Part shown: positions 18,739 through 35,376 of the stretch, piece after piece
Layout of the letters: every line of letters begins with the position of its first letter
Numbering within the stretch: position 1 is the stretch's first letter
NCBI GenBank assembly: GCA_017592665.1
Contig: JAGFNW010000003.1
Span: forward strand, 372,001 to 436,000
Origin: Streptosporangiaceae bacterium NEAU-GS5
Lineage (GTDB): Bacteria; Actinomycetota; Actinomycetes; Streptosporangiales; Streptosporangiaceae
Length of the DNA stretch: 64,000 nt
Reading direction: 5' to 3'
Notes under the pieces: generated by a model
Seen by the model: only the letters and a program-made list of their open reading frames with translations
Told to the model about the DNA's origin: nothing
The model's database searches: none
Translations under genes and position numbers: made by a program

Positions 18739-20130
18739 TCAGCCGTGCTTCTTGGGAGTGGCGCGAGCGCCGTAATGGACGTACTCCTCGCCGGTGGGCA
18801 GCGCGTAGAACGTGACGGGCGCCCACGACTCCATGCCTTCGGGACGCACGGCGTAGACGCCCTGCGAGACCGGTGTCATCTCATGCGTCTCGACCGGGCT
18901 TTCCTCGAGCGCGGCCAGCGGTCCCATCAGGGTGGTCCGCAGGGCCGGCTTGCCCTCGTCCTCGAAGATCTCCATGCGCACCGATTCACGCTCGTACGTG
19001 CCGACGTACGGCGCGAGGTCGGTCGGCGCCGGCTCAGCAGGCGGCTCGAACGGCTCGGGCATCCGCACGCCGGTGATCTCGGCGAAGATCTCGGCGTAGA
19101 GGTCGATGTACAGGTCGTGGGTGTGGCCGCCGTTGGTGGTGAGCGCGACCGCGACGCCCGCTTCGGGCAGCACGCGGAGGAACGCCGCCTGGCCGATGGT
19201 GTTGCCGTCGTGGCCGTAGGCCCGGTGGCCGTGCCAGTCGCAGCGGAACCAGCCGAGCCCCCACGAGTCGCCGAGCAGGTGCTTTTCCGGGCAGTCGGTC
19301 TGGTAGGCCGACATCGCCGCGGCGCTTTCCGCCGACAGCACCCGCGTGCCGTCCGCGGCCAGGCCGCCGGCCATGTGCATCCGGGCGAAGGCGAGCACGT
19401 CGGCGACGTTGGCCGTGATCAGGCCGGCCGGGCCGACCGCGCGGGGCAGCCCCCACACCGGCGCGATCACCGGCTCTTCGCCGCCCTTGACATGGCCCAT
19501 CGCGTGGGCGAAGACCATGGCCTCCTCGGGGAGGGTCGTGGTGTGGGTCAGGCCGAGCGGGGCGAAGAGCCGCTCCTTGATCGCCTGGTCCCAGGTGCTG
19601 CCGGTGGCGACCTCGATGATCCGGCCGAGCACCGAGTATCCCGCGTTGCAGTACGACCAGGTGACGCCGATCGGGTGGTTCTGCGCGACGTCGGCCAGCA
19701 GCGCGACGTACTTCTCCAGGGCGTCGTCGCCGCGTCCGGTGTCGGTGAACAGGTCGCCGTCGATGCCGCTCGTGTGGGTGAGCAGGTTCCAGACGGTCAC
19801 GGCCGCGGTGATCTCCGGGTCGCGCAGCCGGAACTCGGGCAGGATCTCGGCGACCGGGGTGTCGAGGGCGAACCTGCCCTCGTCGACCAGTTGCATGACG
19901 AGGGTCGCGGTCCACACCTTGGTGATCGAGCCGATCTGCCATACGGCGTCCGTGGTGGCCGGCTGGCCGGTGCCGGCGTGCAGCACGCCGGTGGCCACGG
20001 TGACCCGCTCATCCTCGGCGCCGTCGCCGCCCAGCCGGAGGATGCCCAGCTGGGCACCGGGCACGCCGTGCTTGGCGGCGAGTTCGTCGAGGCGGCTCTG
20101 CCAGTGGGCCTGATCGATCGTGCTGGTCAC
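18739..20130 (-). CDS. Cytosolic S12-family serine hydrolase (penicillin-binding/beta-lactamase fold)
   Basis: A 463-residue serine hydrolase with all three family motifs: SITK (SxxK) in WQIGSITKVWTATLVMQL, YCN (YxN) in VTWSYCNAGYSVLG, and HDG in RAYGHDGNTIGQA. A C-terminal lipocalin-like extension follows (DLAPYVGTYERESVRMEIF). There is no signal peptide or membrane anchor, so it acts inside the cell. S12 includes D-aminopeptidases, D-amino acid amidases and D,D-carboxypeptidases. It overlaps the ATPase gene by four bases and is a paralogue of the protein at 25390-26757. Both share the unusual FTDTGRGDDA segment. Confidence 0.85.
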   Translation of the reverse strand: MTSTIDQAHWQSRLDELAAKHGVPGAQLGILRLGGDGAEDERVTVATGVLHAGTGQPATTDAVWQIGSITKVWTATLVMQLVDEGRFALDTPVAEILPEFRLRDPEITAAVTVWNLLTHTSGIDGDLFTDTGRGDDALEKYVALLADVAQNHPIGVTWSYCNAGYSVLGRIIEVATGSTWDQAIKERLFAPLGLTHTTTLPEEAMVFAHAMGHVKGGEEPVIAPVWGLPRAVGPAGLITANVADVLAFARMHMAGGLAADGTRVLSAESAAAMSAYQTDCPEKHLLGDSWGLGWFRCDWHGHRAYGHDGNTIGQAAFLRVLPEAGVAVALTTNGGHTHDLYIDLYAEIFAEITGVRMPEPFEPPAEPAPTDLAPYVGTYERESVRMEIFEDEGKPALRTTLMGPLAALEESPVETHEMTPVSQGVYAVRPEGMESWAPVTFYALPTGEEYVHYGARATPKKHG

Positions 20131-20876
20131 GTCGGCTCCTTCACGGTTGGGATGGTTCCGGGAACGGCGGCGAGGAGGTGGCGGGTGTACTCGTGGCGCG
20201 GCGCGCCGAGCACCTGGGCCGCCGGTCCTTGCTCGACGATCTCTCCGCCGTACATCACCGCGACCCGGCCCGCGACGTACCGGACGACCGCGAGGTTGTG
20301 GGAGATGAACAGCATGGAGAGACCGAGTTCGCGCTGCATGTCGCGGACGAGGTTGAGCACGGCGCCCTGGACGGAGACGTCGAGCGACGAGGTGATCTCG
20401 TCGGCGATGATCACCTCGGGGCGGGCGGCGAGCGCCCTGGCCAGCGCGACGCGCTGCCGCTGGCCTCCGGACAGCCGCCCGGGAAGGTCGTCGGCCCGCG
20501 ACGGGTCGAGGTGCACCAGCGTGAGCAGGCGCGTGATCTCCGCGCGTCTCGCCTGCTTGCCGGGGCGGCCCGGCATGGCCTCCGCGACGCTCTCGCCGAC
20601 GGTCATGCGGGGGTCGAGCGAGGAGTACGGATCCTGGAAGACCATCTGCACGGGACGGACGGGCCCGCGGCGCGGGATGGGCCGGCCGTCCAGCAGGATC
20701 TCGCCGCCCGTCACGGGCGCGAGGCCGACGGCGGCCCGCGCCATGGTCGACTTCCCCGAGCCCGACTCGCCGACGAGCCCCACGACCTCGCCGTCGCCGA
20801 TCTCGAGGCTGACGTCCTTCAGCACGGTGTGCGAGCCGTAGCGGACGCGGACGTCGCGGAAGCTGAGAACGCTCAT
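20127..20876 (-). CDS. Peptide ABC transporter ATP-binding protein (OppF/DppF type)
   Basis: A 249-residue nucleotide-binding domain: Walker A GESGSGKST, Q-loop VFQDPYSSLDPRM, signature LSGGQRQRV, Walker B EVIIADEITSSLDVS (Asp-Glu), and H-loop FISHNLAVV. It matches the second ATPase of oligopeptide/dipeptide importers. ATG 20876 overlaps the preceding permease-ATPase stop in ATGA, so the two are translationally coupled and most likely form the heterodimeric motor. No separate signal is needed for it. Confidence 0.92.
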   Translation of the reverse strand: MSVLSFRDVRVRYGSHTVLKDVSLEIGDGEVVGLVGESGSGKSTMARAAVGLAPVTGGEILLDGRPIPRRGPVRPVQMVFQDPYSSLDPRMTVGESVAEAMPGRPGKQARRAEITRLLTLVHLDPSRADDLPGRLSGGQRQRVALARALAARPEVIIADEITSSLDVSVQGAVLNLVRDMQRELGLSMLFISHNLAVVRYVAGRVAVMYGGEIVEQGPAAQVLGAPRHEYTRHLLAAVPGTIPTVKEPT

Positions 20877-22747
20877 GCGGTGACCTTCGACGTGACGCTG
20901 TGCGGCGCGGCCTTGTGACACGCCACGCGGTTGCCCGCGGCGTCGGCCAGCAGCGGCGGGTCGACCGCGCGGCAGTGGTCGTCGGCGAGCGGGCAGCGGG
21001 CCGCGAACGCGCAGCCGATCGGAACGTGCGGCGGATCGATCGGCACTCCGGGGATGACGGCGAGCGGCCGGTCCAGGTCGGTCTCCATGTCCGGCACGGC
21101 CGCCACGAGCGCCTTCGTGTACGGGTGCCGGGCCAGCGTCCGGAGGTCGGCGGCCGGCAGCTCTTCGACGATCCGGCCGGCGTACATCACCAGCACCCGG
21201 TCGCACACGTCCGTCACGACCGAGACGTCGTGACTGATCAGCAGCAGAGCGGCGCCGGTGTCGCGGCGCACCTCGGCGAGCAGCGCGAGGACCTGGCTCT
21301 GCACGGTGACGTCGAGCGAGGTGGTCGGCTCGTCGGCGATGATGAGCCGCGGCGTCCCCATGAGACCCATGCCGATCATCGCCCGCTGGCGCATGCCTCC
21401 GGAGAACTGGAAGGGGTACTGCCTGGCCCGCCGCTCGGGTTCGCGGATCCTGACGGCGCGCAGCCGGTCGACCGCGCGGGCGAGGGCGGCCCGGCGGCGG
21501 AGCCCCTGGTGGGCCCGACTCACCTCGGCCAGCTGCGGGCCGATCCGGTGGGCGGGATTGAACGATGTCATGGGGTCCTGGAAGACGATGGCGAGCGAGG
21601 TGCCGAGATGCTTGCGCCGCGATTCGGGATCGCCGGGGACCGTCAGGTCCTCTCCCGCGAAGACCAGGTGGTTGGCCTCGACGCGGGCCGGTTGCTCGAT
21701 GAGGTCGGCCACGGCGAGCGCCGTCATCGACTTGCCCGAGCCGGACTCGCCGACGACGCCGACCGCCTCGCCGTCCTTGATCGCGAACGTGACGCCCCGC
21801 ACCGCGTGGACCGGCTGGTGCACGCCCGGGAGGGTCACCCGCAGGTCGTCCACGGAGAGAACGGCGCCGGGGACGGGCGCGGTCAGCTCAGTCGCCGTGG
21901 CCTGACCGAGCGCGGTCCGGACCGTGGCGACGTCGCCGATGCCGAACGCCCCCGCGAGCGCCTCGCCCGTGAGGTTGAACGCGAGCCCGGCGAGGATGAC
22001 GGCGAGGCCGGGCGCGAGCGCGGCGAGCGGGTGGATGTAGATGCCGTTCAGCCCGTCCTGCATGAGCCGGCCCCAGTCGTACGACGGAGCCTGCACGCCG
22101 AGTCCCAGGAACGAGAGCCCGGCGAAGGAGAGCAGCACGCTGCCGGCGGCCATGGTCGCGTTGACGATGAGCGGCTCCGCGACGTTCGGCAGCACGTGGC
22201 GGAACAGGACGCGGAATCGGCCGACGCCCGCGATCCGCGCCGCGGCGACGTAGTCCCGCTCGGAGACGCCGGCCACCAGCGTGTGGCAGAGCCGGGCGAA
22301 CCCGGGCGCCCCGGCGAGGCCGACCGCCAGCGCCGCCCCGCGCGCGCCGACGCCGAAGATGACGGCGAAGAACAGGACGAGCAGCAGGCCGGGGAAGGCC
22401 ACCAGCACGTTGACGGCCCAGGTGATGACGCGGCCCACCCGACGCCCGGCCAGCATCGGCGCCGCCCCCAGGACGACGCCGAGCACGATGCTGATCGCCG
22501 TCGCGGCGAGCGCGAGGACGATCGAGAGCCGGGTGGCCACGAGCACCCGGAAGAACAGGTCGCGGCCGAGGTTGTCGGTGCCGATCCAGTGGTCGGCCGA
22601 CGGGCCGGCGAGCAGGTGATCCGTGTCGACGACCGTGGCCCGGCCGTCCCAGAGGATCGGCCCGAACGCCGCGACCAGCACGACGAGGACCAGCAGCCCG
22701 ATGCCGGCGAGGCCGACGGGCCGCAGCAGCACGCGTGCCGCCCGCAT
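20873..22747 (-). CDS. Peptide ABC transporter permease/ATPase fusion (DppC-DppD)
   Basis: A 624-residue fusion of two subunits that are usually separate. Residues about 1-290 are a DppC-type permease: WIGTDNLGRDLFFRVL near the N-terminus, the EAA-like loop DYVAAARIAGVGR, and several membrane spans. From about 300 on there is a DppD-type ATPase with Walker A GESGSGKSM, signature FSGGMRQRA, Walker B LIIADEPTTSLD, and the C-terminal CAFAARCPLADDHC tail typical of peptide transporters. Fusions of this kind are known in actinobacteria. It begins one base after the stop of the partner permease gene. Confidence 0.92.
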   Translation of the reverse strand: MRAARVLLRPVGLAGIGLLVLVVLVAAFGPILWDGRATVVDTDHLLAGPSADHWIGTDNLGRDLFFRVLVATRLSIVLALAATAISIVLGVVLGAAPMLAGRRVGRVITWAVNVLVAFPGLLLVLFFAVIFGVGARGAALAVGLAGAPGFARLCHTLVAGVSERDYVAAARIAGVGRFRVLFRHVLPNVAEPLIVNATMAAGSVLLSFAGLSFLGLGVQAPSYDWGRLMQDGLNGIYIHPLAALAPGLAVILAGLAFNLTGEALAGAFGIGDVATVRTALGQATATELTAPVPGAVLSVDDLRVTLPGVHQPVHAVRGVTFAIKDGEAVGVVGESGSGKSMTALAVADLIEQPARVEANHLVFAGEDLTVPGDPESRRKHLGTSLAIVFQDPMTSFNPAHRIGPQLAEVSRAHQGLRRRAALARAVDRLRAVRIREPERRARQYPFQFSGGMRQRAMIGMGLMGTPRLIIADEPTTSLDVTVQSQVLALLAEVRRDTGAALLLISHDVSVVTDVCDRVLVMYAGRIVEELPAADLRTLARHPYTKALVAAVPDMETDLDRPLAVIPGVPIDPPHVPIGCAFAARCPLADDHCRAVDPPLLADAAGNRVACHKAAPHSVTSKVTA

Positions 22748-22748
22748 G

Positions 22749-23753
22749 TCAGCCCTCCCCGATCGTCGAACGAGGATCGAGCAGCGCGAGCGCCACGTCG
22801 ACGACGGTGTTGATCAGGAGAACACCGACGCCGTAGACGAGGACGGTGCCCTGCACCAGCGGATAGTCCTTCGCCACGATCGAGGAGACGATCGAGGATC
22901 CGAGACCCGGCCACGCGAAGACGTTCTCCACCAGGACCGTCCCGGCCACAAGGGAGCTCAGCAGGAGCCCGCCGAGCGTCAGGGTCGCCGTCACCGCGTT
23001 CGGCAGGGCGTGCGCGAGATGGATGCGAAGGGCCGTCAGCCGTTTGGCCCGGGCCGTACGGATGTAGTCGGCCTCGAGCACGGCGAGCATCTCCACGCGG
23101 ACGATGCGCGACAGCACCGCGGCGGGGCCGATCGCCAGCGCGAGCACCGGCAGCACATAGGAGCCGAGACCGTCGCGGCCCGCCACCGGGAAGAGGTTGG
23201 TCTGCACGGCCAGCAGGTAGACCAGCCCGACCGCGAGCAGGAAGTCGGGGATCGCGCCGAGCACGACGCTCGTCCCCGTGAACGCCAGTTCCGCGCGGCG
23301 TCTGCGGCCGCGCCGGGTGAGCACGGCCATCACGACGCCCACCGGCACGGCGACGAGCATCGAGAGCAGGAACGCGCTTACGGCCAGCGCCGCCGTCGCC
23401 GGCAGCCGCTGGGCGATCGTCTCGGCCACCGGAAGCCGGCTGGAGATCGACACGCCCATCTCGCCGTGGAACAGACCCGTCAGGAAGTCGGCGTACTGCC
23501 GCCAGAGCGGGTCCAGCAGGCCGAGCTCCCGCTTGCGCGCCAGCACGAGGTCCGCGGGGGCGGTCAGGCCGAGCGCGGCCCGCACCGGATCGCCGGGGAC
23601 GAGGTGGATCATCAGGAACGAGGCGGTCACCAGGACCCAGAGCGATACGAGCAGCCGTCCCGTCCGGCGTAGCGCGAAGCGAAGCCAGGGGTGGGCCCCC
23701 GGGATCCGCAGCCCGCGGACGGGCGGGACGGCTGTCGGCATCGAACCCGTCAT
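22749..23753 (-). CDS. Peptide ABC transporter permease (DppB type)
   Basis: A 334-residue integral membrane protein of the DppB/OppB group. It has a short cytosolic N-terminus, FALRRTGRLLVSLWVLVTASFLMIHLVPGDP (characteristic first span and PGDP), a periplasmic loop, then five more spans, with the permease loop EADYIRTARAKRLTALRIHLAHALPN. It pairs with the DppC half of the fusion protein to form the membrane channel. The start is two bases after the substrate-binding protein stop, consistent with coupled translation. Confidence 0.92.
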   Translation of the reverse strand: MTGSMPTAVPPVRGLRIPGAHPWLRFALRRTGRLLVSLWVLVTASFLMIHLVPGDPVRAALGLTAPADLVLARKRELGLLDPLWRQYADFLTGLFHGEMGVSISSRLPVAETIAQRLPATAALAVSAFLLSMLVAVPVGVVMAVLTRRGRRRRAELAFTGTSVVLGAIPDFLLAVGLVYLLAVQTNLFPVAGRDGLGSYVLPVLALAIGPAAVLSRIVRVEMLAVLEADYIRTARAKRLTALRIHLAHALPNAVTATLTLGGLLLSSLVAGTVLVENVFAWPGLGSSIVSSIVAKDYPLVQGTVLVYGVGVLLINTVVDVALALLDPRSTIGEG

Positions 23754-23755
23754 CG

Positions 23756-25354
23756 TCAGCCGAGCATCCGGATGCTGGTCGGGACGATGCTGCCGACGAT
23801 GGAGAGCTTCGCGTTCTTGAGGAAGGTCGGGATCACGTTGTTGGCGAAGGGGACCAGGTCCGCGGCCTTGTAGAGGGCCTGCTCCGCGGCGAACCAGTCG
23901 CCGCAGCCGGCGGCGCCGTTGGCGGCCATCGCCTTGGTGGTGAGGGCGGTGTAGTCGGCGTTGTCGATGGCGGCGAAGTTGGTGCCCTTCGGCGTGACGG
24001 TGCCGGAGAGGAAGGGCACCAGCTGGTCGGGGGTGCTGACGTTGACGGGCTCCCAGACGACGTCCCAGTCACCGGTGCCGAACAGCGCGCCGGAGACCTT
24101 CGTCTGGTCCTGCTGGGTGGCCTTGGCGTCGATCCCGATCCCCTTCCATGCCGCCACGGCGAGTTCGGCGGCGGCGCTGCCGCCGGTGCCGAGCGAGGCG
24201 TCGTAGAGGAAGGAGATCGAGAGCTTCTTGCCGCCCTTGGCGCGTACGCCGTCCGGGCCCTTCGTCCAACCGGCGGCGTCGAGGGCCGCCCCGGCGGCCG
24301 CCGCGTCGAACGACGGCACGTGGCCGTTGACGGCGTCGCCGACGCAGCCCGACGGCGCGATGGCCGCCAGCTGGGTCGCGGCCGTGCCCTTGCCGGAGGT
24401 CAGGGCGACCTGCAGCTGCTTGAGATCGAGCGCCTGGGTCAGCGCCATGCGGACGGCCGGATCGGAGGTCGGGTGCCCGGCCGCGTGGTTGTACCACTGC
24501 TCGCCGATCAGCGCCTGTGTGCCCACGGACTCGAGGCCCGCCTTGGCCAGACGGTCGGCGTCCGGCCCGGTGATCAGGACGGCGTTGACGGTGCCGCCCA
24601 GCAGCTCGTTGGCGGCGGTCGTCTCATTCGCGACGATCTTTACGACGACCTTGGCGGGCGTGCCCTGCTCGGCCGTGCTCGCGCCGGCCGGACCCCAGGT
24701 GTAGCCCTTGCGCACCTCATAGGTGTAGTGGTCGGACGGGACCGCCTCTTTGAGGACGTACGGGCCGGTGCCGTTGGTGGCGGCCTTGAGGGTGGTGCGG
24801 TCCTTCATGCCGGCCGAACACACCATCGGCAGGTTCGCGAACGAATTCAGCACGAACGGAGCCGGCGACGCCAGCTTCACCGTGACCGTCGAACCCGAGG
24901 CGGTCGCGGTGGCGCCGGCCGGGACGAAGACGCCGAGGAACGGGCTCTTGTTGTCGGGGTTCTCGACGTAGGTGATGTTGTCGACGACCGTCTGCGCCGT
25001 GAACGGCGTGCCGTCGGCGCAGGTGATGCCGTCCTTGAGGGTGAAGGTGACGGTGTCGCCGTTGACCGTCCACGACGTGGCCAGCTGCGGGACGATCTTG
25101 CCGTCCTTCGTGACGGCCACCAGGTTGTCGTAGGCGAACTGGGTCATGGTGAACAGCGCGCTCACGGCCGAGCCATGCGGGTCGAGGGCGCCCGGGTCGG
25201 CGGAGATGTCGAGGGTGAAGGTCTTGCCGTTGACGGCGGCGCCGGCGCCACCCGGCTTGGCGGAGTCGGACGCGCCGCCGCAGGCGGCCAGGCCGAGCGA
25301 GCCGGCCAGTGCCAGGGAGAGCGCACCGAGGGCCCTCGTCCGGGTGGGGGTCAT
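23756..25354 (-). CDS. Peptide ABC transporter substrate-binding lipoprotein
   Basis: A 532-residue family 5 solute-binding protein (DppA/OppA). The start at ATG 25354 is preferred over ATG 25393. It has AAAGGA upstream and gives a proper lipoprotein signal peptide, with the lipobox LAAC near residue 25 followed by GGASDS. The mature domain shows the family features (SADPGALDPHG, ADGTPFTAQTVVDNI, ALTQALDLKQL). It would be tethered outside the membrane to capture peptides. The neighbouring S12 hydrolases, M19 dipeptidase and racemase suggest D-residue-containing peptides as ligands. It is the first transporter gene of the operon. Confidence 0.92.
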   Translation of the reverse strand: MTPTRTRALGALSLALAGSLGLAACGGASDSAKPGGAGAAVNGKTFTLDISADPGALDPHGSAVSALFTMTQFAYDNLVAVTKDGKIVPQLATSWTVNGDTVTFTLKDGITCADGTPFTAQTVVDNITYVENPDNKSPFLGVFVPAGATATASGSTVTVKLASPAPFVLNSFANLPMVCSAGMKDRTTLKAATNGTGPYVLKEAVPSDHYTYEVRKGYTWGPAGASTAEQGTPAKVVVKIVANETTAANELLGGTVNAVLITGPDADRLAKAGLESVGTQALIGEQWYNHAAGHPTSDPAVRMALTQALDLKQLQVALTSGKGTAATQLAAIAPSGCVGDAVNGHVPSFDAAAAGAALDAAGWTKGPDGVRAKGGKKLSISFLYDASLGTGGSAAAELAVAAWKGIGIDAKATQQDQTKVSGALFGTGDWDVVWEPVNVSTPDQLVPFLSGTVTPKGTNFAAIDNADYTALTTKAMAANGAAGCGDWFAAEQALYKAADLVPFANNVIPTFLKNAKLSIVGSIVPTSIRMLG

Positions 25355-25389
25355 ACGGTTCCTTTGCTGGTCCGGGCATTCGGGGGGGT

Positions 25390-26757
25390 TCATGCGCGGG
25401 AGACCACGCGGCCGTAGTGGATGTGTCTGGCGCGGCCCGCGTCATCGCGCCCGATGAAGGCGAAGACGACGTGGATGCCATGGGTGGACTCCAGCGAGAT
25501 CAGCGAGTCGCCTTCGAAGTGCACCAGCTGGGTGCGCAGCGGCTTCTCACCGATCTCGGCGTGAATGTCCTTGGGCACCCGGTCGAGCCAGATCACCCCG
25601 TCGGCGTCCTGGCTGACGGTGATGTCGTAGATCGTGTCCGAGTAACGGCCGAGGTAGGGCGCGGGGTCGATGGTCCGCGGCTCGGCCGGCGGCATGGGGC
25701 GGCCCGGCAGCGTGACGCCGGTGAGCTCCTTCAGCAGGTGCGCCACCACGTCGGTGAAGATCCCGAAGAAGTCGCCGCCGTTGGTAAGCAACGCGATGGC
25801 CACGCCGTGCTCGGGCGCGATCCGCAGGAAGGCCGCCTGGCCGATGGTCCCGCCGTCGTGGCCGATCACCGTGTGGCCGTCGTGATTTTCCATCTCCCAG
25901 CCGAGGCCCCACGAGCCGCCCATGCCGCTGAGCCGGGGCAGCTCGACCTGCGGCCGCCGCATGGCCGCCACGGTCTCGGGGGTCAGGATGACGGTGCCGT
26001 CCGGCGCCTTGCCGTCGGCCAGGTGCATGGCGACGAAGCCGAGCAGGTCGCGGGCGGTCATGGCGAGCATCGAGCCGGCGGGCGCGTTGGACCGGGCGAG
26101 CGCCCAGGTCGGCGTGGGCTCGCCGGTGCCGAGATGCCCGACGGCCGCCCGGTGCACGATCGCCTCGTACGGGCTGGGCGAGACGTGCGTGAGCCCGAGC
26201 GGCGTGGCCAGCCGCTCGACCAGCACCTGGTCGAAGGGCTTGCCGCGGAGCACCTCCACCAGGCGGCCGAGGACGACGAACCCGGTGTTGTTGTAGGAGA
26301 AGACCTCGCCCGGCTCGAACAGCTGCGGGATGTCGTGGATCGAGGCGAGGTACTTCTCGATGGCGTCGTCGCCGCGGCCGGTGTCGGTGAAGATGTCGCC
26401 TTCGAAGCCCGCGACGTGGCACAGCAGCTGGCGCGTGGTGATCGTGGCGGCCGCCGCCGCGTCGCCGATGACGAACTCGGGGAGATAGCCGCGCAGCGGC
26501 GCGTCGAGGTCGACCAGGCCGTCGTCCACCAGCTGCATCACCAGGGCGCTGGTCCACAGCTTGGTGATCGAGCCGATCTGGAAGACCGAATCCGTGGTCG
26601 CCTCGACGCCCGTGGTCCTGCTGAGGACGCCCGCGGCCGCGGTGAGCACCCGGCCCCCGGCGAGCACGGCGACCGAGGCGCCGGGCACGCCGCGGTCGGC
26701 CACGATCGGGGCGAAGTGTTCATCGAGCCAGCTCTGAACACTTTCGGGCGACATCAT
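25390..26757 (-). CDS. Cytosolic S12-family serine hydrolase, paralogue of the 18.7 kb protein
   Basis: A 455-residue serine hydrolase with SITK in FQIGSITKLWTSALVM, YNN in VFSYNNTGFVVLG, and HDG in TVIGHDGGTIGQA, plus a C-terminal lipocalin-like domain. There is no signal peptide, so it is intracellular. It shares the FTDTGRGDDA segment and overall layout with the hydrolase at 18739-20130, so the importer genes lie between two paralogous peptidase-like enzymes. ATG 26757 or 26754 is chosen: TAGCCT lies seven bases upstream and no Shine-Dalgarno is present. A longer TTG start at 26808 would fall within the operator-like repeats. D-stereospecific peptidase or esterase activity is the likely role. 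Confidence 0.83.
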   Translation of the reverse strand: MMSPESVQSWLDEHFAPIVADRGVPGASVAVLAGGRVLTAAAGVLSRTTGVEATTDSVFQIGSITKLWTSALVMQLVDDGLVDLDAPLRGYLPEFVIGDAAAAATITTRQLLCHVAGFEGDIFTDTGRGDDAIEKYLASIHDIPQLFEPGEVFSYNNTGFVVLGRLVEVLRGKPFDQVLVERLATPLGLTHVSPSPYEAIVHRAAVGHLGTGEPTPTWALARSNAPAGSMLAMTARDLLGFVAMHLADGKAPDGTVILTPETVAAMRRPQVELPRLSGMGGSWGLGWEMENHDGHTVIGHDGGTIGQAAFLRIAPEHGVAIALLTNGGDFFGIFTDVVAHLLKELTGVTLPGRPMPPAEPRTIDPAPYLGRYSDTIYDITVSQDADGVIWLDRVPKDIHAEIGEKPLRTQLVHFEGDSLISLESTHGIHVVFAFIGRDDAGRARHIHYGRVVSRA

Positions 26758-26800
26758 GCCGCTGAGGCTAGAAGGCGAGCCTTCCGGCGTACTCAGTAGA

Positions 26801-26840
26801 TCGGACAAGCCGAATAGGGCGGCGTTGTCCGATCCGACAA
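26801..26840. promoter_or_regulatory. Cluster of three TTGTCSGA half-sites upstream of the peptide operon
   Basis: TCGGACAA (26801-26808) and TTGTCCGA (26825-26832) are perfect complements. TCCGACAA (26833-26840) follows immediately, making TTGTC-N6-GACAA with the second copy. The cluster lies 44-83 bases before ATG 26757, where an activator or repressor would act. A further inverted repeat, GAAGGC-GA-GCCTTC, sits at 26771-26784, nearer the start. The PucR-type protein encoded downstream is the obvious candidate to bind here. Confidence 0.55.
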
Positions 26841-26846
26841 CAGTGC

Positions 26847-27806
26847 CTACTTCCAGACCTGGGCGGCCACCCGCCGGAAGTTGCCGCCGAGGATGCCGCG
26901 CACCGTGTCCTCCGGATAGCCGCGCTTGACCAGCTCCTGCTCGATCCGCAGCGTGACCTCCGGCTCGACGAACTGGATCACGCCCCAGCGGGTGTACTCA
27001 TCGGGGAACAGGTCCGGGTTCGCCTCGAGGTCGGCCTGCACGTCGTCGGCGTCGAAGGAGAAGTCGCTGCCGATGCCGACATGCTCGGGCCCGACGAGCT
27101 CGACGGCGTAGTCGATGTGCGCGATGAAGGCGTCCAAGGTCGCGGTGTTGGGACCGAGGAAGATGCCGACGCCGGGAATCCCGATGACGCCCCCGGTCTC
27201 GGCGCACGCGCGGGCCTGCTCGTCGGTGATGTTGCGGGCGTGGTCCCACAGGCCGCGCATGGCGGAGTGGGAGTAGATCATCGGCTCGGCGGAGGCCTCC
27301 GAGAGATCCAGCCCCGTGCGCGTGCCGCAGTGCGAGCCGTCGACCAGCATGCCGACCTCGTTCATCCGCTTGACCAGGTCGCGGCCGTACGCGGTAAGAC
27401 CGGTGTCGGTCTTGTCGAGGCAGCCGCCGCCGGCCGCGTTCCCGTTGTTGTAGCTCGGCAGCAGCGACTTCACGCCGAGGTCGTAGTAGGTCCGCACCAT
27501 GTCGAGGTCGCCGGCCAGCGGATTGGAGTCCTCGAGGTCGAAGGCCACCACGATCCGGTCGCCGGGGACCGCGGCGTCGATCGCCGCCACGGTCGTGGCC
27601 ATCTCCAGGTCGGGGTGGGCCTCGATCGCGCGGGTGAAGTGGTCGATGTAGGAGAGCGAATCCTCGCGGGAGTGCGGCGCGTAGCCGACGTTGACGCAGA
27701 CGTAGGCCCCGCCGGGACGGCGATAGCGCAGGATGTCGCCGACGTCGGCGTCGAGGGTGAGCGGCAGGCAGGCGTGCTGCTCCCAGAAGGCACGGGTAGA
27801 ACTCAT
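26847..27806 (-). CDS. Membrane dipeptidase-like peptidase, family M19
   Basis: A 319-residue renal-dipeptidase-type TIM barrel. Motifs seen are VVAFDLEDSNPL (Glu bridging ligand region), LVDGSHCGTRTG, PMIYSHSAMRGLW and HVGIGSDFSFD. The usual N-terminal metal motif HxD is altered. The equivalent position reads EQHACLPL, so the His is kept but the Asp is replaced by Cys. M19 enzymes split dipeptides and tolerate a D-residue at the C-terminal side, which fits the D-peptide theme of the operon. There is no signal peptide. TAAAAAT lies seven bases before ATG 27806, suggesting a leaderless message. Confidence 0.85.
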   Translation of the reverse strand: MSSTRAFWEQHACLPLTLDADVGDILRYRRPGGAYVCVNVGYAPHSREDSLSYIDHFTRAIEAHPDLEMATTVAAIDAAVPGDRIVVAFDLEDSNPLAGDLDMVRTYYDLGVKSLLPSYNNGNAAGGGCLDKTDTGLTAYGRDLVKRMNEVGMLVDGSHCGTRTGLDLSEASAEPMIYSHSAMRGLWDHARNITDEQARACAETGGVIGIPGVGIFLGPNTATLDAFIAHIDYAVELVGPEHVGIGSDFSFDADDVQADLEANPDLFPDEYTRWGVIQFVEPEVTLRIEQELVKRGYPEDTVRGILGGNFRRVAAQVWK

Positions 27807-27859: not shown

Positions 27860-29821
27860 ATGACGGCGCGCGGGTTGGACCCGGCCTTTGGGGCAGCGGA
27901 TGAGGCGCTGCTGGTCGAGGGCAACCTGCGGGCGAGCCGGGAGGCGTACGACGCGGCCTATCGGGAGGCCGAGGGGCGGGGCGACGAGCAGGGGATGGCC
28001 CTCGCGGCGCTGGGGCTCGGCGGCTTGTGGGTGCACGAGCATCGGGGCGCGGCGGACGCCGCGATGGTGTGGACGCGCCTTCGCCGCTCCTTGGCGCTGG
28101 TCGATCCCCGATCGTCGCCGGGGCTCCGGCTGCGGATCAGGATGGCCGCCGAGGCGGACTACCGCGTCGGCGAGCACTCCGGGATCCTGGCCATGTTGGC
28201 CGAGGCCAGGCGGGCCGGCGACCCGGTGGCGTTCGCGGAGGCGCTGAGCCTCACCCATCACTGCGTGCTGGGTCCAGAGCACGCGGCGCTGCGGCAGGAG
28301 CTGGCGCGCGAGCTGATCGGCGAGGCGCCGCGGACCGGCCGCCGCAGCGACCTGCTCATGGGGCTTATGTGGAACACCGTCGACGGGTTCCTGTCGGCCG
28401 ACCCGCACGCCGAGCGCTACCTGGAGGAGCTGCGCGCCCAGCTCGCGGAGCGGGAACATCTGGCGGTCGGGTTCGTCGTGGCCGCGCTCGGGGTGATGCG
28501 CGACATCCGCGCCGGCCGGCTGGCGGAGGCCGAGGCCGAAGCGTCCGCCTGCGCCGACCGTGGGGCCGACGCCGGCGACATCGACACGACCGGGTGGTTC
28601 GTGGGGCAGCTTGCGGTGATCCGCTGGTATCAGGGCCGCGGCGCCGAGTTCCTCCCGCTGCTGTCGGAGCTGGTGAGCTCGCCGACGTTGAGCCCGGTGG
28701 ACTACTCCTACTTCGCCGCTCTCGGGGTGGCGGCGGCAAGTGTCGGGGATCACCGGCTGGCGACCGGTGCCCTCGCCCGGATACGCGGCCGGGCCCTGGC
28801 CGAACTGCCGCGCTCGAGCAGCTGGCTGACGACCATGTACGCCGTGGTCGAGACGGCGCACCTGCTCAGGGGAGGATCGGCGGACATGTCGGCCGAGGTC
28901 TCGGCCGAGGCGTACGAGCTGCTGCTGCCCTTCGCGCATCTTCCGGTGATCGTCAGTCTCGGCGTCGCCTGCCTGGGATCGGTGCAACACTGCCTGGGCG
29001 TGGCCTCGCTGACCCTCGGCCAGGTGGACCGGGCCGTGGGACACCTGCGCGCGGCCGTGCACGACAACGTCGTGCTCGGGCACTGGCCCGCCGTCGCGCT
29101 GTCGCGGGCGCGGCTGGGGCAGGCGCTCGCGCTACGCGACGGAATCCGCGACGAGACGGCGATACGCGAGCTCACCCTGGCCGAGCAGGAGGCGGCGGCG
29201 CTGGGCATGGCGTTGCCGGCCCCCGTGCGTCCCGTGGAGCAGGGCGCCGAAGCCGGGCCCCGAGCGCCGGCCGTGTGCTGGCGCCGCGGGCGGCAGTGGT
29301 GGATCGAGCTCGGCGGCCGGACCGTGTGCGTCGCGCACAGCGTGGGCATGGATCATCTGTCGATCCTGCTGGCCAACCCAGGGCAGGAGATCCCGGCCGT
29401 CGAGCTGGCCGCGGGCCCTGGGCTCCGTGGTCCTTCCGCCGACGAGAGCGCGGCGACCGCCGGTCAGGCGATGCTGGACGAGGTGGCCGTACGGGAGTAC
29501 AAGGAGCGGCTGGAGCAGCTGCGGGACGAGATCGGCGAGCTCGAGGCGCTGAACGACTACGAACGCGTCGCCGCGACCCGGGCCGAGCGTGACTGGCTGC
29601 TCGACGAGCTGGCCGCCGCCACCGGCATGGGCGGACGGGCGCGCCAGTTCGCCGACAACCAGCAGCGGGCCAGGCTCGCCGTGGGCAAGGCCATCAGGCG
29701 TGCGCTGAACCGCATCACAGAGGCCGATCCGATCCTCGGCGCCGAGCTGCGCGCCACCGTCCACACGGGCGTGCGCTGCTGCTACCGCCCCGGGCCGATT
29801 CCGGCGATCCCGGGGCGGTAG
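27860..29821 (+). CDS. TPR-rich protein with C-terminal regulator-type winged-helix domain
   Basis: A 653-residue cytosolic protein of no assigned function. Most of it is alpha-helical with TPR/SARP-like repeats (ASREAYDAAYREAEGRGDEQGMALAALGLG at the N-terminus). From about residue 550 a charged helical segment (EYKERLEQLRDEIGELEALNDYERVAATRAERDWL) leads to a terminal domain ending ARLAVGKAIRRALNRI and LRATVHTGVRCCYRP. That terminal domain is common in large actinobacterial ATPase and regulator proteins. No Walker or DNA-binding N-terminal domain is present. It is divergent from the M19 dipeptidase gene, with TACTGT eight bases before the ATG. The last codons lie within a terminator hairpin. 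Confidence 0.7.
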   Translation: MTARGLDPAFGAADEALLVEGNLRASREAYDAAYREAEGRGDEQGMALAALGLGGLWVHEHRGAADAAMVWTRLRRSLALVDPRSSPGLRLRIRMAAEADYRVGEHSGILAMLAEARRAGDPVAFAEALSLTHHCVLGPEHAALRQELARELIGEAPRTGRRSDLLMGLMWNTVDGFLSADPHAERYLEELRAQLAEREHLAVGFVVAALGVMRDIRAGRLAEAEAEASACADRGADAGDIDTTGWFVGQLAVIRWYQGRGAEFLPLLSELVSSPTLSPVDYSYFAALGVAAASVGDHRLATGALARIRGRALAELPRSSSWLTTMYAVVETAHLLRGGSADMSAEVSAEAYELLLPFAHLPVIVSLGVACLGSVQHCLGVASLTLGQVDRAVGHLRAAVHDNVVLGHWPAVALSRARLGQALALRDGIRDETAIRELTLAEQEAAALGMALPAPVRPVEQGAEAGPRAPAVCWRRGRQWWIELGGRTVCVAHSVGMDHLSILLANPGQEIPAVELAAGPGLRGPSADESAATAGQAMLDEVAVREYKERLEQLRDEIGELEALNDYERVAATRAERDWLLDELAAATGMGGRARQFADNQQRARLAVGKAIRRALNRITEADPILGAELRATVHTGVRCCYRPGPIPAIPGR

Positions 29822-29832: not shown

Positions 29833-32800
29833 TCAGATCTTCGCTATCTCCGTGTCGACGAACTCGGCCGGACCTGCCTTGGCGGTGATCCGGACCCGGG
29901 CGGGCGTGCCATCGGCGTAGGTGAGGGTCGTGCTCTGACCGGCCTGGCCGAGCACGGCCATGAGCCGCACGCCCTTGCGGCCCCACTCCCCGCTGCCCGC
30001 CGGGTCACCGGAGAAGGGCGGTGGGAACTGGTCCATGGTCGCGGCGTCCTCGACGATGTGCCACACGGCGATGCCCTGCGGCAGGTTGCCGTCGTAGTTG
30101 GCGCCGTTGCCGCCCCAGCGGTTCTCGAGGATGAAGTACGCCTTGTCCTGCCGCGCCGGGTCGAAGACGATCGTGATCTCCCGCCGGCTCTCCACCGACG
30201 CCAGCGGCACGGTCCGTACCGTCAAGGTGGTGGTGTCGACCAGGCCGGGCAGCACGAACCCGCTCTTGAGCTTGTGGAACGGGTCGAAGTGATTGGCCTG
30301 CGTGTGGTTGTCCATCACGCTGTACCGGCCGGGACGCAGGGTGTTGCTCCAGTACATGTCGGCCGCGCCGAGGATGTCGTGGGCGCCCTCGTGCACCAGC
30401 AGGCCGACGTTGACCAGCCGGTGGGAGGTGTCGGTCGACGCGGACAGATAAAGGTCGAGCACCCGGACGTTCATGGTGAAGCCGTCAAGAGGCGCCGACG
30501 CCCACTGCGTGGTGCCGTCGCCGTTGTTCTGCGGGCGGATGATCTCGACCACGAGCTCGTCGCCGCCGATGGCGTTGTCGCCGTCGCGGTCGTAGGCCTT
30601 GAAGTCGAAGAACGGGTCGGCCGCCTTCAGCGCGTCCTGCCACATCAGCGGGAAGTTGCCGGTGTCCCAATACCAGGTGCCGGTGCGGCCGGCCGGCGCG
30701 GGCAGCCAATTCCCGTCGTTGCAGCCGACGAGCGTGGGCGTGGCGAACCCGAACTGGTCGCCGGTGTTCTCCCGATACCACGCCTGCGCGTTGGCGCCCC
30801 CGTCGCCGCCGTCGTGCAAGGCCCGCAGGTAGGCGGAGGTGGGGGGCGCGTGGCCGGGCCGCCGCGGATCGAAGCAGATCGCCACCGAGGGAATCTGCCC
30901 CACCCTCGGCGCGAGGCTCGAATACGGCTGGGCGAAGTCGGTGCCATGGCGGGTCTTGTACGTCACGGCCACGACGCGGTCGCCGATGACGGCGCCGGCA
31001 CCCGAGTCGACCGATGCCTGCACCTGCACGGTGTGCGTGCCGAGCTGCAGGTTCTTGGCGACGAAGGTGTAGGTCTGGGCGTGCGTGTGGGTCACGTTGG
31101 TGGCCAGCTCGACCTCGCTCTGCCCGACCGGCCGGCCGTCGATCAGGGCACGCAGGAACGTGCGGTCACGGGTGGCCTGATGCTCCATCCCGACCGTCAG
31201 CTCCACGTCCTCGCTCGGCACGGCGGTGATGAAGGTGGCGCCCATGTTGGACACGTCGACCCAGCTGGTGGAGGTGACGGTCTGGCGTGAGCCCTGGGAG
31301 GCCGACTCCACCAGGCCGCCCTCGTCGGTGAACTCCGGACTCGCGAACACCGTCAGCGCGCGGTCGGCCAGCCTGATGCTCGCGCCGGGAATGGTGCCGG
31401 GATCGACCGACCATTGCACGGCCACGGTGTGCGGGCCCGCGCCGACGTCCTTGCGCACGAACACGTACGACCGGGCGCCGCCGACGACCCCGGGATCCTC
31501 GAAGATCACGTCTTCGGTCGGCTGCCCGTCGACCATGGCACGGGCCAGGAACTTCCCGCTGCTGTTGGTGGTAAGGCCGGAGAAGGTGATCTTGATGTTG
31601 CCATGTGAGGGAGCGAAGACCGTCCGGGTCAGGTCCGGCACGTTCTCCCATGCCAGGGAGCTCTTTACCCGGAAGTCCGACTCGGCCGCGACGTGCGCGA
31701 GCGCGCCGCCCGCCTCGCTGTGGACCGACAGCGTGCGGTCGCGGATGCGGGCGACCTGGCCAGAGTTGGAGTACCACTGGACCTGGACGATGTGCTTGCC
31801 GGCCGGCATCGATTCGCGGCCGAACGTGAACGACCGCGTGCCGTCGAACTCCGCTCCGGCCAGCCGGTAGGCGACATCGGAGGGGCTGGTCACGCCGCCG
31901 TCGACGAGCACGCGCAGCCACACGGAGTTGACCGTGTAGATCTCGGCCGACACGGTGGCGGTGAGCGTGGCGCCGGAAACCGTGTAGACGGCGGTGGTCA
32001 AGCCGGGCACGTCCACCCAGACGCCGGGCGAGTTGGCCTTCGGCGCCTGCTCCGGCGGGACGACGACCGTCACGTCGCTGCTCGGCTTGGGCAGCGGGAA
32101 CGACGACTGGACGTCCGCCTGAGAGCAGAACGCCTGGATGCCGGCGCCCCAGGCGTGCTCGACGTCGGGCGCGTACATGGTCATGTTCAGGACGTTCAGG
32201 TCGTCGGTGGGCGCCAGGCGGGCGACGACCAGGTCGAAGTTGGGCACGCCGCCGGAGAAGGACGTTCCGAGGACGTGGGTGCCGGCCGGGCAGGTGGCCG
32301 TCACGGTCTTGGTGCGCTCGTTGGCGTTGAACCGGGACACGGCGTTCGCCATGGTGACCGGCGCGTCGGCGTCCACGCAGACGGCGAAGGTGGTCACGCT
32401 CCACGAGCCGTCGAAGCCGTCGGCGTCCTCGCCGGCGCTGACCGAGGCGAAGTCGCGGTCGGGCTGCCGGGCGCCCATCTCACGGATGTGGACCTGGCCG
32501 CCGCCGTCGTTGATCCGCGCGCCGGTGCCGAGCACCCGCTTGCCGTCCGGACACGAGATCTGGTTGATGCGGTCGAAGTTGGAGTCGGCCGGGCCGGTGT
32601 TGAAGACGACCTGCTGCCCGGGCAATGGGTCGGTGCAGATGGCGTACGCCGCCACGCTCCAGTTGCCGGCGAAACCCTCGTCACGTTCGGTGCCCGTCAC
32701 CCGGAAACTGTCGAAGGCCGTGGCCGCGATGGGCCGCATCTCGGTCACTTCGACTTCCCCCTGATTGGGGGTCGCGCCGCCGGCCGCGGTTATCCCCCCA

Positions 32801-33006
32801 CCCCCGCCCGTGACCTTCTTGCCGGCCGGGCACTGCGCGACCACGCTCTTGGTGGGCGACGACTCCTGGATCGAGGCCGCCTGAACCAGGACGACCACAG
32901 GTCTGCCCCAAGCCGCGGCCGATGTGACGCCATATAAGACCTGCGACACCAACGCGAGCGCGGTCAGCGCAGCGACCGCCGCTCCCCAATGTCGTTTGAC
33001 ATGCAT
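29833..33006 (-). CDS. Large secreted modular metalloprotease (HEGAH, M6-like)
   Basis: A 1057-residue exported protein. A signal peptide is followed by three related cysteine-containing modules of roughly 90-100 residues (CPAGKKVTG, CPDGKRVLG and CPAGTHVLG, ending AICTD, AVCVD and AFCSQ). Next come three Ig-like modules of about 130 residues, each with RALIDGRPV- or ARAMVDGQPT-type and HTVQVQ-type motifs. The C-terminal catalytic region carries HEGAHDILGAADM (HExxH near residues 872-876). The zinc motif and following Asp resemble immune inhibitor A-type (M6) peptidases, though similarity beyond the motif is modest. ATG 33006 has GGAAGG 13 bases upstream. Likely a cell-surface or secreted protease with binding modules. 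Confidence 0.72.
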   Translation of the reverse strand: MHVKRHWGAAVAALTALALVSQVLYGVTSAAAWGRPVVVLVQAASIQESSPTKSVVAQCPAGKKVTGGGGGITAAGGATPNQGEVEVTEMRPIAATAFDSFRVTGTERDEGFAGNWSVAAYAICTDPLPGQQVVFNTGPADSNFDRINQISCPDGKRVLGTGARINDGGGQVHIREMGARQPDRDFASVSAGEDADGFDGSWSVTTFAVCVDADAPVTMANAVSRFNANERTKTVTATCPAGTHVLGTSFSGGVPNFDLVVARLAPTDDLNVLNMTMYAPDVEHAWGAGIQAFCSQADVQSSFPLPKPSSDVTVVVPPEQAPKANSPGVWVDVPGLTTAVYTVSGATLTATVSAEIYTVNSVWLRVLVDGGVTSPSDVAYRLAGAEFDGTRSFTFGRESMPAGKHIVQVQWYSNSGQVARIRDRTLSVHSEAGGALAHVAAESDFRVKSSLAWENVPDLTRTVFAPSHGNIKITFSGLTTNSSGKFLARAMVDGQPTEDVIFEDPGVVGGARSYVFVRKDVGAGPHTVAVQWSVDPGTIPGASIRLADRALTVFASPEFTDEGGLVESASQGSRQTVTSTSWVDVSNMGATFITAVPSEDVELTVGMEHQATRDRTFLRALIDGRPVGQSEVELATNVTHTHAQTYTFVAKNLQLGTHTVQVQASVDSGAGAVIGDRVVAVTYKTRHGTDFAQPYSSLAPRVGQIPSVAICFDPRRPGHAPPTSAYLRALHDGGDGGANAQAWYRENTGDQFGFATPTLVGCNDGNWLPAPAGRTGTWYWDTGNFPLMWQDALKAADPFFDFKAYDRDGDNAIGGDELVVEIIRPQNNGDGTTQWASAPLDGFTMNVRVLDLYLSASTDTSHRLVNVGLLVHEGAHDILGAADMYWSNTLRPGRYSVMDNHTQANHFDPFHKLKSGFVLPGLVDTTTLTVRTVPLASVESRREITIVFDPARQDKAYFILENRWGGNGANYDGNLPQGIAVWHIVEDAATMDQFPPPFSGDPAGSGEWGRKGVRLMAVLGQAGQSTTLTYADGTPARVRITAKAGPAEFVDTEIAKI

Positions 33007-34150: not shown

Positions 34151-35376
34151 TCAGTCGTCTATCGCCTGATAGACCGTCGTCCAGAAGTCGTGGACAAGCC
34201 GCGCCGAATCGGGGACGGACATTCCCACCTGGGTGAGCACGATTCCGACGAGCTGATTGTCCGGGTCGGCGTACGTCGAGGTGCCGCTTCCGCCGTCCCA
34301 GCCGAACTGGCCGATGGGCGCGTAGTCGCCGCGGTAGGTGCGCACCGCCATCCCGAATCCCCAGCCGCCCTGCTGTCCCTGGCCGAATGACACATGGACG
34401 TTGTCGGCGGCCATGACGTTTCTGGCGGCCTGTTGCTCGGGCGTGAGGCGGTTTGTGGTCATCAGCTCGACGGCGGGCCGTGACAGGATTCGCGCTCGCT
34501 GCCGTGCGTGCCGAGATTCAGCAGCATCCGGAAGTAGGCGTGGTAGTCGTCGGCCGTGGAGACCAGCCCGCCCCCACCACCCTGGAACGCCGGCGGCCGG
34601 CTGTGGCGGCCCCCTTCGGCCGGGTCCCACACATGGAACTCCCCGGTCTTCGGGTCGGGGGCGTACAGGGCCGGCAGCCGGTCGATCTTGTCGGCGGGCA
34701 CGTGGAAACCGGTGTCCTTCATCCCCAGCGGATCGAAGACGCGTTCCCGCAGGACAGTCTCGAACGACCGGCCCGTGACCCTGGCGACCAGCACGCCGAG
34801 CAGATCGCTGCTGATGTGGTACTGCCAGCGCTCGCCGGGCTGGTGCATCAACGGAAGCTCGCCGAGACGGCGCATCCACTCATCCGGCTCGGGCATCTCC
34901 GGTCCCTGGGGCGTGAGCCCCCGCTCGAAGATCGCGCCCATGATCGGGGCGCCCAGCGAGGTCAGGTCCATGCCGAGCCCGAACGTCGAGGTCAGCAGGT
35001 CCCGTACGGTGATCGGCCGCCGCGCCGGCACGGTGTCGTCCAGGGGACTGTCGATCCGCTTCAGCACCTGGCGGTCGGCGAGCTCCGGCAGCCACGGCTC
35101 GACCAGGTCGTCCAGCCGCAGCCGGCACTCGTCGAGCAGGACCATGGCCGCCGCGATCGCGACCGGCTTCGACGTCGAGGCCATCCGGAAGATCGTGTCC
35201 CGGCGCATCGGCGCGCCGCCGTCATGGAGCATCGTCCCGATCGCCTCGACGTGCGTCTCATCGCCCCGGCCGACGAGGGCGACGACCCCGGGGATCTTCC
35301 CGGAATCGACATGCCGCGCCAGCACGTCACGCATCCTGCGCAGCCCTGCTTCGGAGAAGCCGCTCTTGCCCATCAT
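34151..35376 (-). pseudogene. S12-family serine hydrolase disrupted by a frameshift
   Basis: The gene starts normally at ATG 35376 (or 35373) with a perfect AAAGGAG seven to ten bases upstream. The first frame gives SxxK in FRMASTSKPVAI, a Tyr motif in WQYHISSDLLG and the family segment YHAYFRMLLNLGTHGSER. It then runs out of register near 34490, and this frame stops at 34462. The natural continuation (ILSRPAVELMTTNRLTPEQ, with GYAP- and WDGGSGT-type segments at the end) is in another frame down to 34151. One lost or two gained bases restore a protein of about 405 residues. The intact ribosome site and clean codon use suggest a recent mutation or a sequencing error. Confidence 0.85.

Follow-up and report, generated by a model that had tools for sequence, protein, structure and literature searches.

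What two arrays of repeats do for a protease is the question raised by a gene at positions 29833-33006 (minus strand) of the 64,000-nucleotide stretch of Streptosporangiaceae bacterium NEAU-GS5 DNA analysed here (the window). The initial annotation, made from the letters alone, had described its product as a metalloprotease with triplicated CPxG modules and tandem Ig domains, in an architecture not known to it as a described family. Our analysis suggests that the protein is probably an M6-related zinc protease that is secreted and aimed by a pair of binding heads, each built three-fold within a single chain, one made of the CPxG modules and the other of three jelly-roll modules (J1-J3) where the Ig domains had been placed. 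The gene and its parts were mapped as follows.

29833..33006, minus strand: whole coding sequence with stop, 1057 amino acids, a single open frame starting at 33006 and ending at 29833
32911..33006, minus strand: signal-peptide-like N-terminus, residues 1-32 (hydropathy and by-eye reading)
32125..32910, minus strand: CPxG triple, residues 33-294, one predicted PCSK9-C-terminal-domain-like unit (structure model and fold comparison)
32632..32889, minus strand: CPxG module 1, residues 40-125, with Cys 59 and 124
32374..32610, minus strand: CPxG module 2, residues 133-211, with Cys 152 and 210
32125..32349, minus strand: CPxG module 3, residues 220-294, with Cys 239 and 294
31705..32055, minus strand: predicted TNF/C1q-like module J1, residues 318-434 (fold via sequence similarity to J2)
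31327..31689, minus strand: predicted TNF/C1q-like module J2, residues 440-560 (structure model)
30937..31299, minus strand: predicted TNF/C1q-like module J3, residues 570-690 (fold via sequence similarity to J2)
29836..30948, minus strand: M6-related metalloprotease region, residues 687-1057 (profile match)
30556..30591, minus strand: DRDGDNAIGGDE, calcium-loop-like (Pfam EF-hand_5 at E 0.32, not significant)
30352..30393, minus strand: zinc site HEGAHDILGAADMY, residues 872-885
30310..30324, minus strand: YSVMD, probable Met-turn (Met invariant in 5/5 aligned family members)

Nowhere in the 1057-residue protein did a Pfam domain exceed its cut-off, no PDB sequence similar to the whole protein was found at E ≤ 1, and NCBIfam returned a sub-threshold M6 domain together with CtpA at E 0.11. 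No curated Pfam or NCBIfam model spans the protein, in agreement with the initial annotation, to which the architecture was not known as a described family; nor could the entire chain be assigned to a known M6 subfamily, only residues 739-982 matching the M6 model TIGR03296. Judged by sequence, the C-terminal third is M6-related and the remainder has no assigned family. Residues 1-32 pass from a basic start through hydrophobic AAVAALTALALVSQVL to small residues. A promoter and terminator scan gave no signal above chance.

The triplication of the CPxG unit was borne out. The motifs CPAGKKV, CPDGKRV and CPAGTHV begin at residues 59, 152 and 239, each module holds exactly two cysteines (59/124, 152/210 and 239/294), and local alignments of modules 1 and 2, 1 and 3, and 2 and 3 scored 101, 60 and 49; the highest scores in 500 shuffles of each pair were 58, 48 and 42. 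The AlphaFold2 model of the triple, built from a 21-row alignment (the window triple plus 20 relatives), reached a predicted local distance difference test score (pLDDT) of 90.7 and a predicted template modelling score (pTM) of 0.89, with 18 strands across the three modules. With this model, Foldseek gave 26 PDB matches at E ≤ 0.001 (9e-10 to 5e-7), consisting of 25 PCSK9 chains and one APCbeta chain. The first 21 VIA-align rows were all PCSK9 (Z 19.9-21.2, 2.4-2.9 Å across 189-209 residues), the alignment covering the model from residue 1-3 to 262 and the model's last cysteine closing the aligned range at PCSK9 Cys678, while the runners-up were APCbeta of TgPLP1 and PvPLP1 (Z 6.3-7.6), followed by the best other fold at 4.2 and resistin-like beta at 3.5. 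This confident model predicts that the three CPxG modules fold jointly into one pseudo-threefold unit of PCSK9-C-terminal-domain type.

Profile searches gave no credible Pfam or NCBIfam family match for any of the 21 CPxG rows. The strongest of some scattered matches to unrelated families, CoV_S1_C (best E 2e-5, 10/21 rows at E ≤ 1) and AdoMetDC_leader (best E 2e-4, 12 rows), were disbelieved along with the rest, and Pfam Resistin touched 2/21 rows marginally (best E 0.053). Searched against 177,635 PDB sequences at E ≤ 10, the CPxG profiles retrieved TgPLP1 APCbeta only (E 1.2 with the triple profile, 0.62 and 1.0 with the single-module profile), a match that is not significant alone and is noteworthy because APCbeta belongs to the same fold group as the PCSK9 domain. 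A viral fold library gave one better match, a 738-residue protein (E 6e-5, template modelling (TM) score 0.42 by query length).

When named genomes were scanned using a three-row CPxG alignment, 32 loci matched. Micromonospora accounts for 27 of them, and Nonomuraea, Catellatospora, a Nocardiopsis metagenome-assembled genome (MAG), an Acidimicrobiia MAG and a Chloroflexi MAG contribute one apiece. At 28/32 loci one frame encodes three modules with six cysteines, and the Chloroflexi locus has a single module after a collagen-like stretch. No enzyme domain was seen in the stand-alone triple proteins inspected from these loci, and viral contigs held no relatives of the triple. Thus the repeats are real, as initially annotated, but they are not peculiar to the window protein: CPxG-triple proteins are common in Micromonospora and present in other actinomycetes, and a known fold is predicted for the triple.

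The number of modules per chain follows a one-or-three rule in the open reading frames (ORFs) that were read. Three-module profiles, as used on the named genomes, favour three-module genes. A single-module profile, itself derived from three-module proteins, gave matches in 19/246 phylum genomes and 77/249 order genomes (the window's genome being in both sets). The phylum search yielded 22 distinct ORFs, of which 15 carry a single module and 7 a triple, the window protein being among the 7 and two others (L146 and L160) being scored by six cysteines plus three CPxG-like units recognised by eye. Left out before these counts were two loci of genome G000, C38 (module pieces with a broken third) and C46 (partial match), together with L154 (internal stops) and L155 (below the recovery threshold); the C38 locus (L025) is a CPxG gene in pieces, with the break inside its third module and close to a contig end. 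The order search yielded 32 ORFs at 29 loci, comprising 22 triples (19 by profile and L184, L185 and L192 by six cysteines), 6 singles and 4 fragments of two broken genes. These 29 loci and eight further stretches are what was read from the 77 order genomes with matches, the latter picked partly since the listing showed just two matches for some ORFs; their nine ORFs proved to be 6 triples, 2 singles on a collagen-like stalk and 1 triple frame-broken in module 1. None of the unbroken ORFs read clearly has two, four or five modules. The nearest exception, L096, has two modules by profile and a degenerate third unit, and L095 shows two by profile but its gene is in pieces. A 1302-residue ORF (L037 and L053, genome G118) carries two CPxG triples with other domains between them, as read partly by eye.

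Single modules lie at the C-terminal end or close to it, followed by 1-15 residues in the phylum set, by 50 in L189 and by 35 in L203. In the phylum and order sets together, a collagen-like stalk (at least 5 GXX triplets) precedes the module in 8/21 single-module ORFs and in no three-module ORF (Fisher P 0.0005 with 28 of the 29 counted triples entered, a guide only, because related genes are counted as independent). These eight stretches span 5 to 164 GXX triplets. Five long collagen-like proteins (L141, L145, L147, L153 and L189, 35-164 triplets) have their one CPxG module terminal, or near the end in L189. Three further single-module ORFs have an LNADxLDG motif, which we would guess to mark a trimeric stalk. 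Collagen helices are trimers, which would bring each single module so stalked together with two others. Resistin has one module per chain and forms a trimer on a coiled-coil stalk. We reasoned that if the working unit is a trimer, made from three chains as in resistin or from one as in PCSK9, the one-or-three pattern is what would be expected. Weighing against this reading, 10/21 single-module ORFs have neither GXX repeats nor LNADxLDG and so no recognised stalk. The wider set has 62 rows, in which the window protein turns up repeatedly as cut loci; no other protein there has more than 140 residues past its last CPxG module.

The second array is also real and consists of exactly three modules, J1-J3, with pairwise alignment scores of 96-121 against shuffle maxima of 51-56 (500 shuffles), and exactly three are found in 5/5 unbroken family members. 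The J modules are unlike the CPxG modules (cross-comparison z at most 3.0, none exceeding the shuffle maximum). Their 'Ig-like' label was not sustained, since the best of five models of J2 (pLDDT 82.8, pTM 0.76) is a jelly roll whose nearest structures are the TNF-like lectins PLTL and BC2L-C (Z 11.3-12.4, 2.6-2.9 Å across 113-115 residues by VIA-align). TNF-like lectins and chlamydial Pgp3 (9.7-10.8) together fill the first 11 rows (Z 9.7-12.4), and the next neighbours include phage and spore proteins, EDA (9.3) and C1q heads (8-9). No Ig domain appears among the 50 listed rows, an absence from a list and not an exclusion, and Pfam gave no Ig match. J2 is thus predicted to be a TNF/C1q-like jelly roll. 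Two points count against so specific an assignment: the J2 alignment consisted of the three window rows only, the other four models ranging from pLDDT 79.8 to 51.7 with one of them poor, and the TNF-like lectins lead by a moderate margin, because viral capsid jelly rolls reach Z 9.5 and CBM36 and others also appear. Elsewhere in the phylum, four weak single J-like copies occur in their own frames (L110, L111, L112 and L114, E 2e-4 to 2e-3) and L113 and L115, likewise weak matches, are parts of larger proteins, while viral contigs held no relatives of J1. TNF-like lectins are described as built of trimers, PLTL as two such trimers (PMC12914763), and the presence of three J modules in one chain therefore suggests, by analogy, that J1-J3 may close into a second, single-chain pseudo-trimer. 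By title and abstract, we found no relevant report of natural tandem TNF or C1q pseudo-trimers in the open-licence literature.

The M6-type zinc site proposed initially was confirmed, with HEGAH at residue 872 inside the segment that matches TIGR03296 (residues 739-982; 46.9 bits, E 3e-12). The same model matches 5/5 family members (best E 4e-18), and the window copy keeps HExxH, the following Asp and the Met of YSVMD, the probable Met-turn. Two features detract from a plain M6 assignment. The score lies below the curated cut-off of 110.8, and the motif, HExxHxxxGxxD in the window copy and in the three paralogs that keep HExxH, has one extra residue between the second His and Gly compared with the HExxHxxGxxD spacing generally required of M6. 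One relative, L060, has the usual spacing (HEIGHDLGLPD). Two distant M6-like proteins with HEVMH and HEMMH and an odd spacing before the Asp (L016 and L058) were seen in two genomes of the same family.

Besides the window protein, the 9.96-Mb genome has five paralogs sharing the stretch that runs from J1, or a later point, to the C-terminus (47-58% identity). Four of these paralogs are unbroken and have a different N-terminal region where the window protein has its CPxG domain; the fifth, C61 (L024), has a break at either end of its alignable frame. Outside this genome the protease family is nearly absent. Among 296 class genomes, 3 others gave a distant match (32-71 bits, versus 457-730 for the six home copies), and among 297 family genomes, 8 others matched with at best 77 bits versus 1768. 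In named species genomes, none of 48 pattern-matching stretches was confirmed as a protease relative (the window's genome possibly being excluded), and none was found in viral contigs.

Taken together, these results suggest the following mode of action, in which both folds come from structure models. The signal peptide would export the protein. The CPxG triple would form one pseudo-threefold beta-prism of the PCSK9-C-terminal, resistin and APCbeta type, each module probably closed by a disulfide between its two cysteines, and the jelly rolls J1-J3, of a fold that is homotrimeric elsewhere, may close into the second pseudo-trimer. Both heads could attach to proteins or glycans of a cell surface or matrix, keeping the C-terminal protease positioned at its substrate for presumed proteolysis. 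The CPxG head is an exchangeable module, because many actinomycete genomes encode the triple as a protein of its own and four unbroken paralogs carry another N-terminal region.

That exchangeability bears on an alternative that casts the CPxG domain as a pro-domain, serving latency or as a chaperone and cleaved on activation, with the TNF-like modules as spacers. Its N-terminal location is where a pro-domain would sit, and the M6 protease PrtV is reported to mature from a larger precursor that is processed at both its N- and C-terminus (PMC2613228). However, a dedicated pro-domain is expected to follow its protease, whereas the CPxG triple occurs protease-free in many genomes and the four unbroken paralogs join the same protease to another N-terminal region, so we consider this explanation unlikely. 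It is similarly improbable that the window protein is a non-catalytic pseudoprotease adhesin. Two paralogs have indeed lost the catalytic Glu, C34 (L023) reading HAAAH and the frame-broken C61 HSVAH, and the NCBIfam 'M6-like inactivated metalloprotease' model weakly matched 2/5 members (best E 0.0013), but the window copy and the other three paralogs retain HExxH with the following Asp and Met, and the window frame is intact.

A targeted, active protease remains the reading that we favour, and the alternative with most weight concerns the ancestry of its first head: the PCSK9 likeness may be convergence on a generic two-layer, three-repeat beta-prism without shared history. Several results pull in that direction, and some of them weigh on the fold assignment itself. 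Foldseek superposition on PCSK9 was weaker than that of VIA-align (TM 0.50-0.57 by query length, 5-7 Å, about 15% identity), and each bacterial module has two cysteines versus six in PCSK9. By hhalign the CPxG profile scored 17.2 against PCSK9, which is not significant (mean 11.4 and maximum 18.8 in 100 shuffles). Pfam PCSK9_C3, the only PCSK9 profile searched, exceeded its cut-off in 0/12 genomes; at E ≤ 10 it matched 8/12 genomes and 7/14 control genomes, which is noise, and none of its three weak matches in the window's genome falls at the CPxG genes. The modelled alignment is also shallower than its row count, because 13 of the 20 relatives are closely alike Micromonospora sequences. On the other side, the Z of about 21 holds for almost the entire domain, pairs the three modules in PCSK9's order and far exceeds that of any other fold, and the only PDB sequences that the profiles matched, albeit weakly, fall in the same fold group. 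Convergence is thus a live possibility to which we give somewhat less than an even chance. The PCSK9 likeness rests on structure with marginal sequence support, and we claim the predicted fold but not common descent, because the hhalign score was non-significant and PCSK9_C3 had no matches above cut-off.

More tentatively, CPxG may be the bacterial branch of the superfamily behind resistin, the PCSK9 C-terminal domain and APCbeta, bacteria having both the single trimerising and the fused states, with the fused form joined here to a protease as in PCSK9 and to a TNF/C1q-like single-chain trimer; we regard this as possible but fall short of calling it probable. No report of the fold in bacteria was found in the open-licence literature on PCSK9, resistin and APCbeta. 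The C-terminal domain of PCSK9 is of medical importance, and the many natural single- and three-module variants of a bacterial family would make the origin and minimal architecture of its fold directly testable. A common actinomycete protein without a credible family match also gains boundaries and a predicted fold.

The protease gene is converged upon by a plus-strand gene for a 653-residue protein (27860-29821) without a Pfam match at E ≤ 0.001. Past this one opposite-strand gene, downstream of and on the same strand as the protease gene, 18739-27806 (minus) holds oligopeptide ABC transporter genes, a solute-binding protein, two PF00144 genes and an M19 dipeptidase. The dipeptidase and transporter would fit use of released peptides, though the arrangement proves nothing. 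At 34151-35376 (minus), a PF00144 (beta-lactamase-like) gene is split into overlapping frames (34462-35376 and 34151-34879) that match model positions 2-236 and 216-310, reflecting a frameshift or a sequence error.

Compared with known systems, the protease region shares with the M6 metalloproteases InhA and PrtV the profile match over residues 739-982 and the HExxH, Asp and Met, and differs in its score below the curated cut-off and in the extra zinc-motif residue; PrtV is described with PKD domains (PMC2613228), where the window protein has CPxG and TNF-like modules instead. The J2 model shares its jelly-roll fold with PLTL and the N-terminal domain of BC2L-C, bacterial, glycan-binding TNF-like trimers by the same source as above (PMC12914763), which have one module per chain versus three in tandem here. 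APCbeta of the apicomplexan perforin-like proteins is reported as a pseudo-threefold beta-prism of three Cys-linked repeats (PMC6294395) and as such resembles the predicted CPxG head, being also the sole PDB sequences touched by the CPxG profiles (E 0.6-1.2), but its structural match is weaker (Z 6.3-7.6, about 6 Å) and it is part of a pore-forming protein with a membrane-binding hydrophobic loop (PMC6294395). Resistin and the resistin-like molecules parallel the collagen-stalked single-module relatives in carrying one module on a trimerising stalk, although that stalk is a coiled coil and not collagen-like, and resistin-like beta matches CPxG module 1 marginally (Z 3.5, 2.7 Å across 62 residues). 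The PCSK9 C-terminal domain, whose fold has been likened to resistin (PMC9816786) and grouped with APCbeta (PMC6294395), and which is reported to have CAP1, annexin A2 and HLA-C among its protein partners (PMC9816786), differs in having 18 cysteines (six per module) versus two per module, 14 histidines versus 3 here in the region compared, and a C-terminal position on a subtilisin versus an N-terminal one on a metalloprotease, at about 15% identity. With these differences, it presents the same arrangement as that predicted for the window protein, namely three modules per chain in equal order, a pseudo-threefold fold and fusion to a secreted protease.

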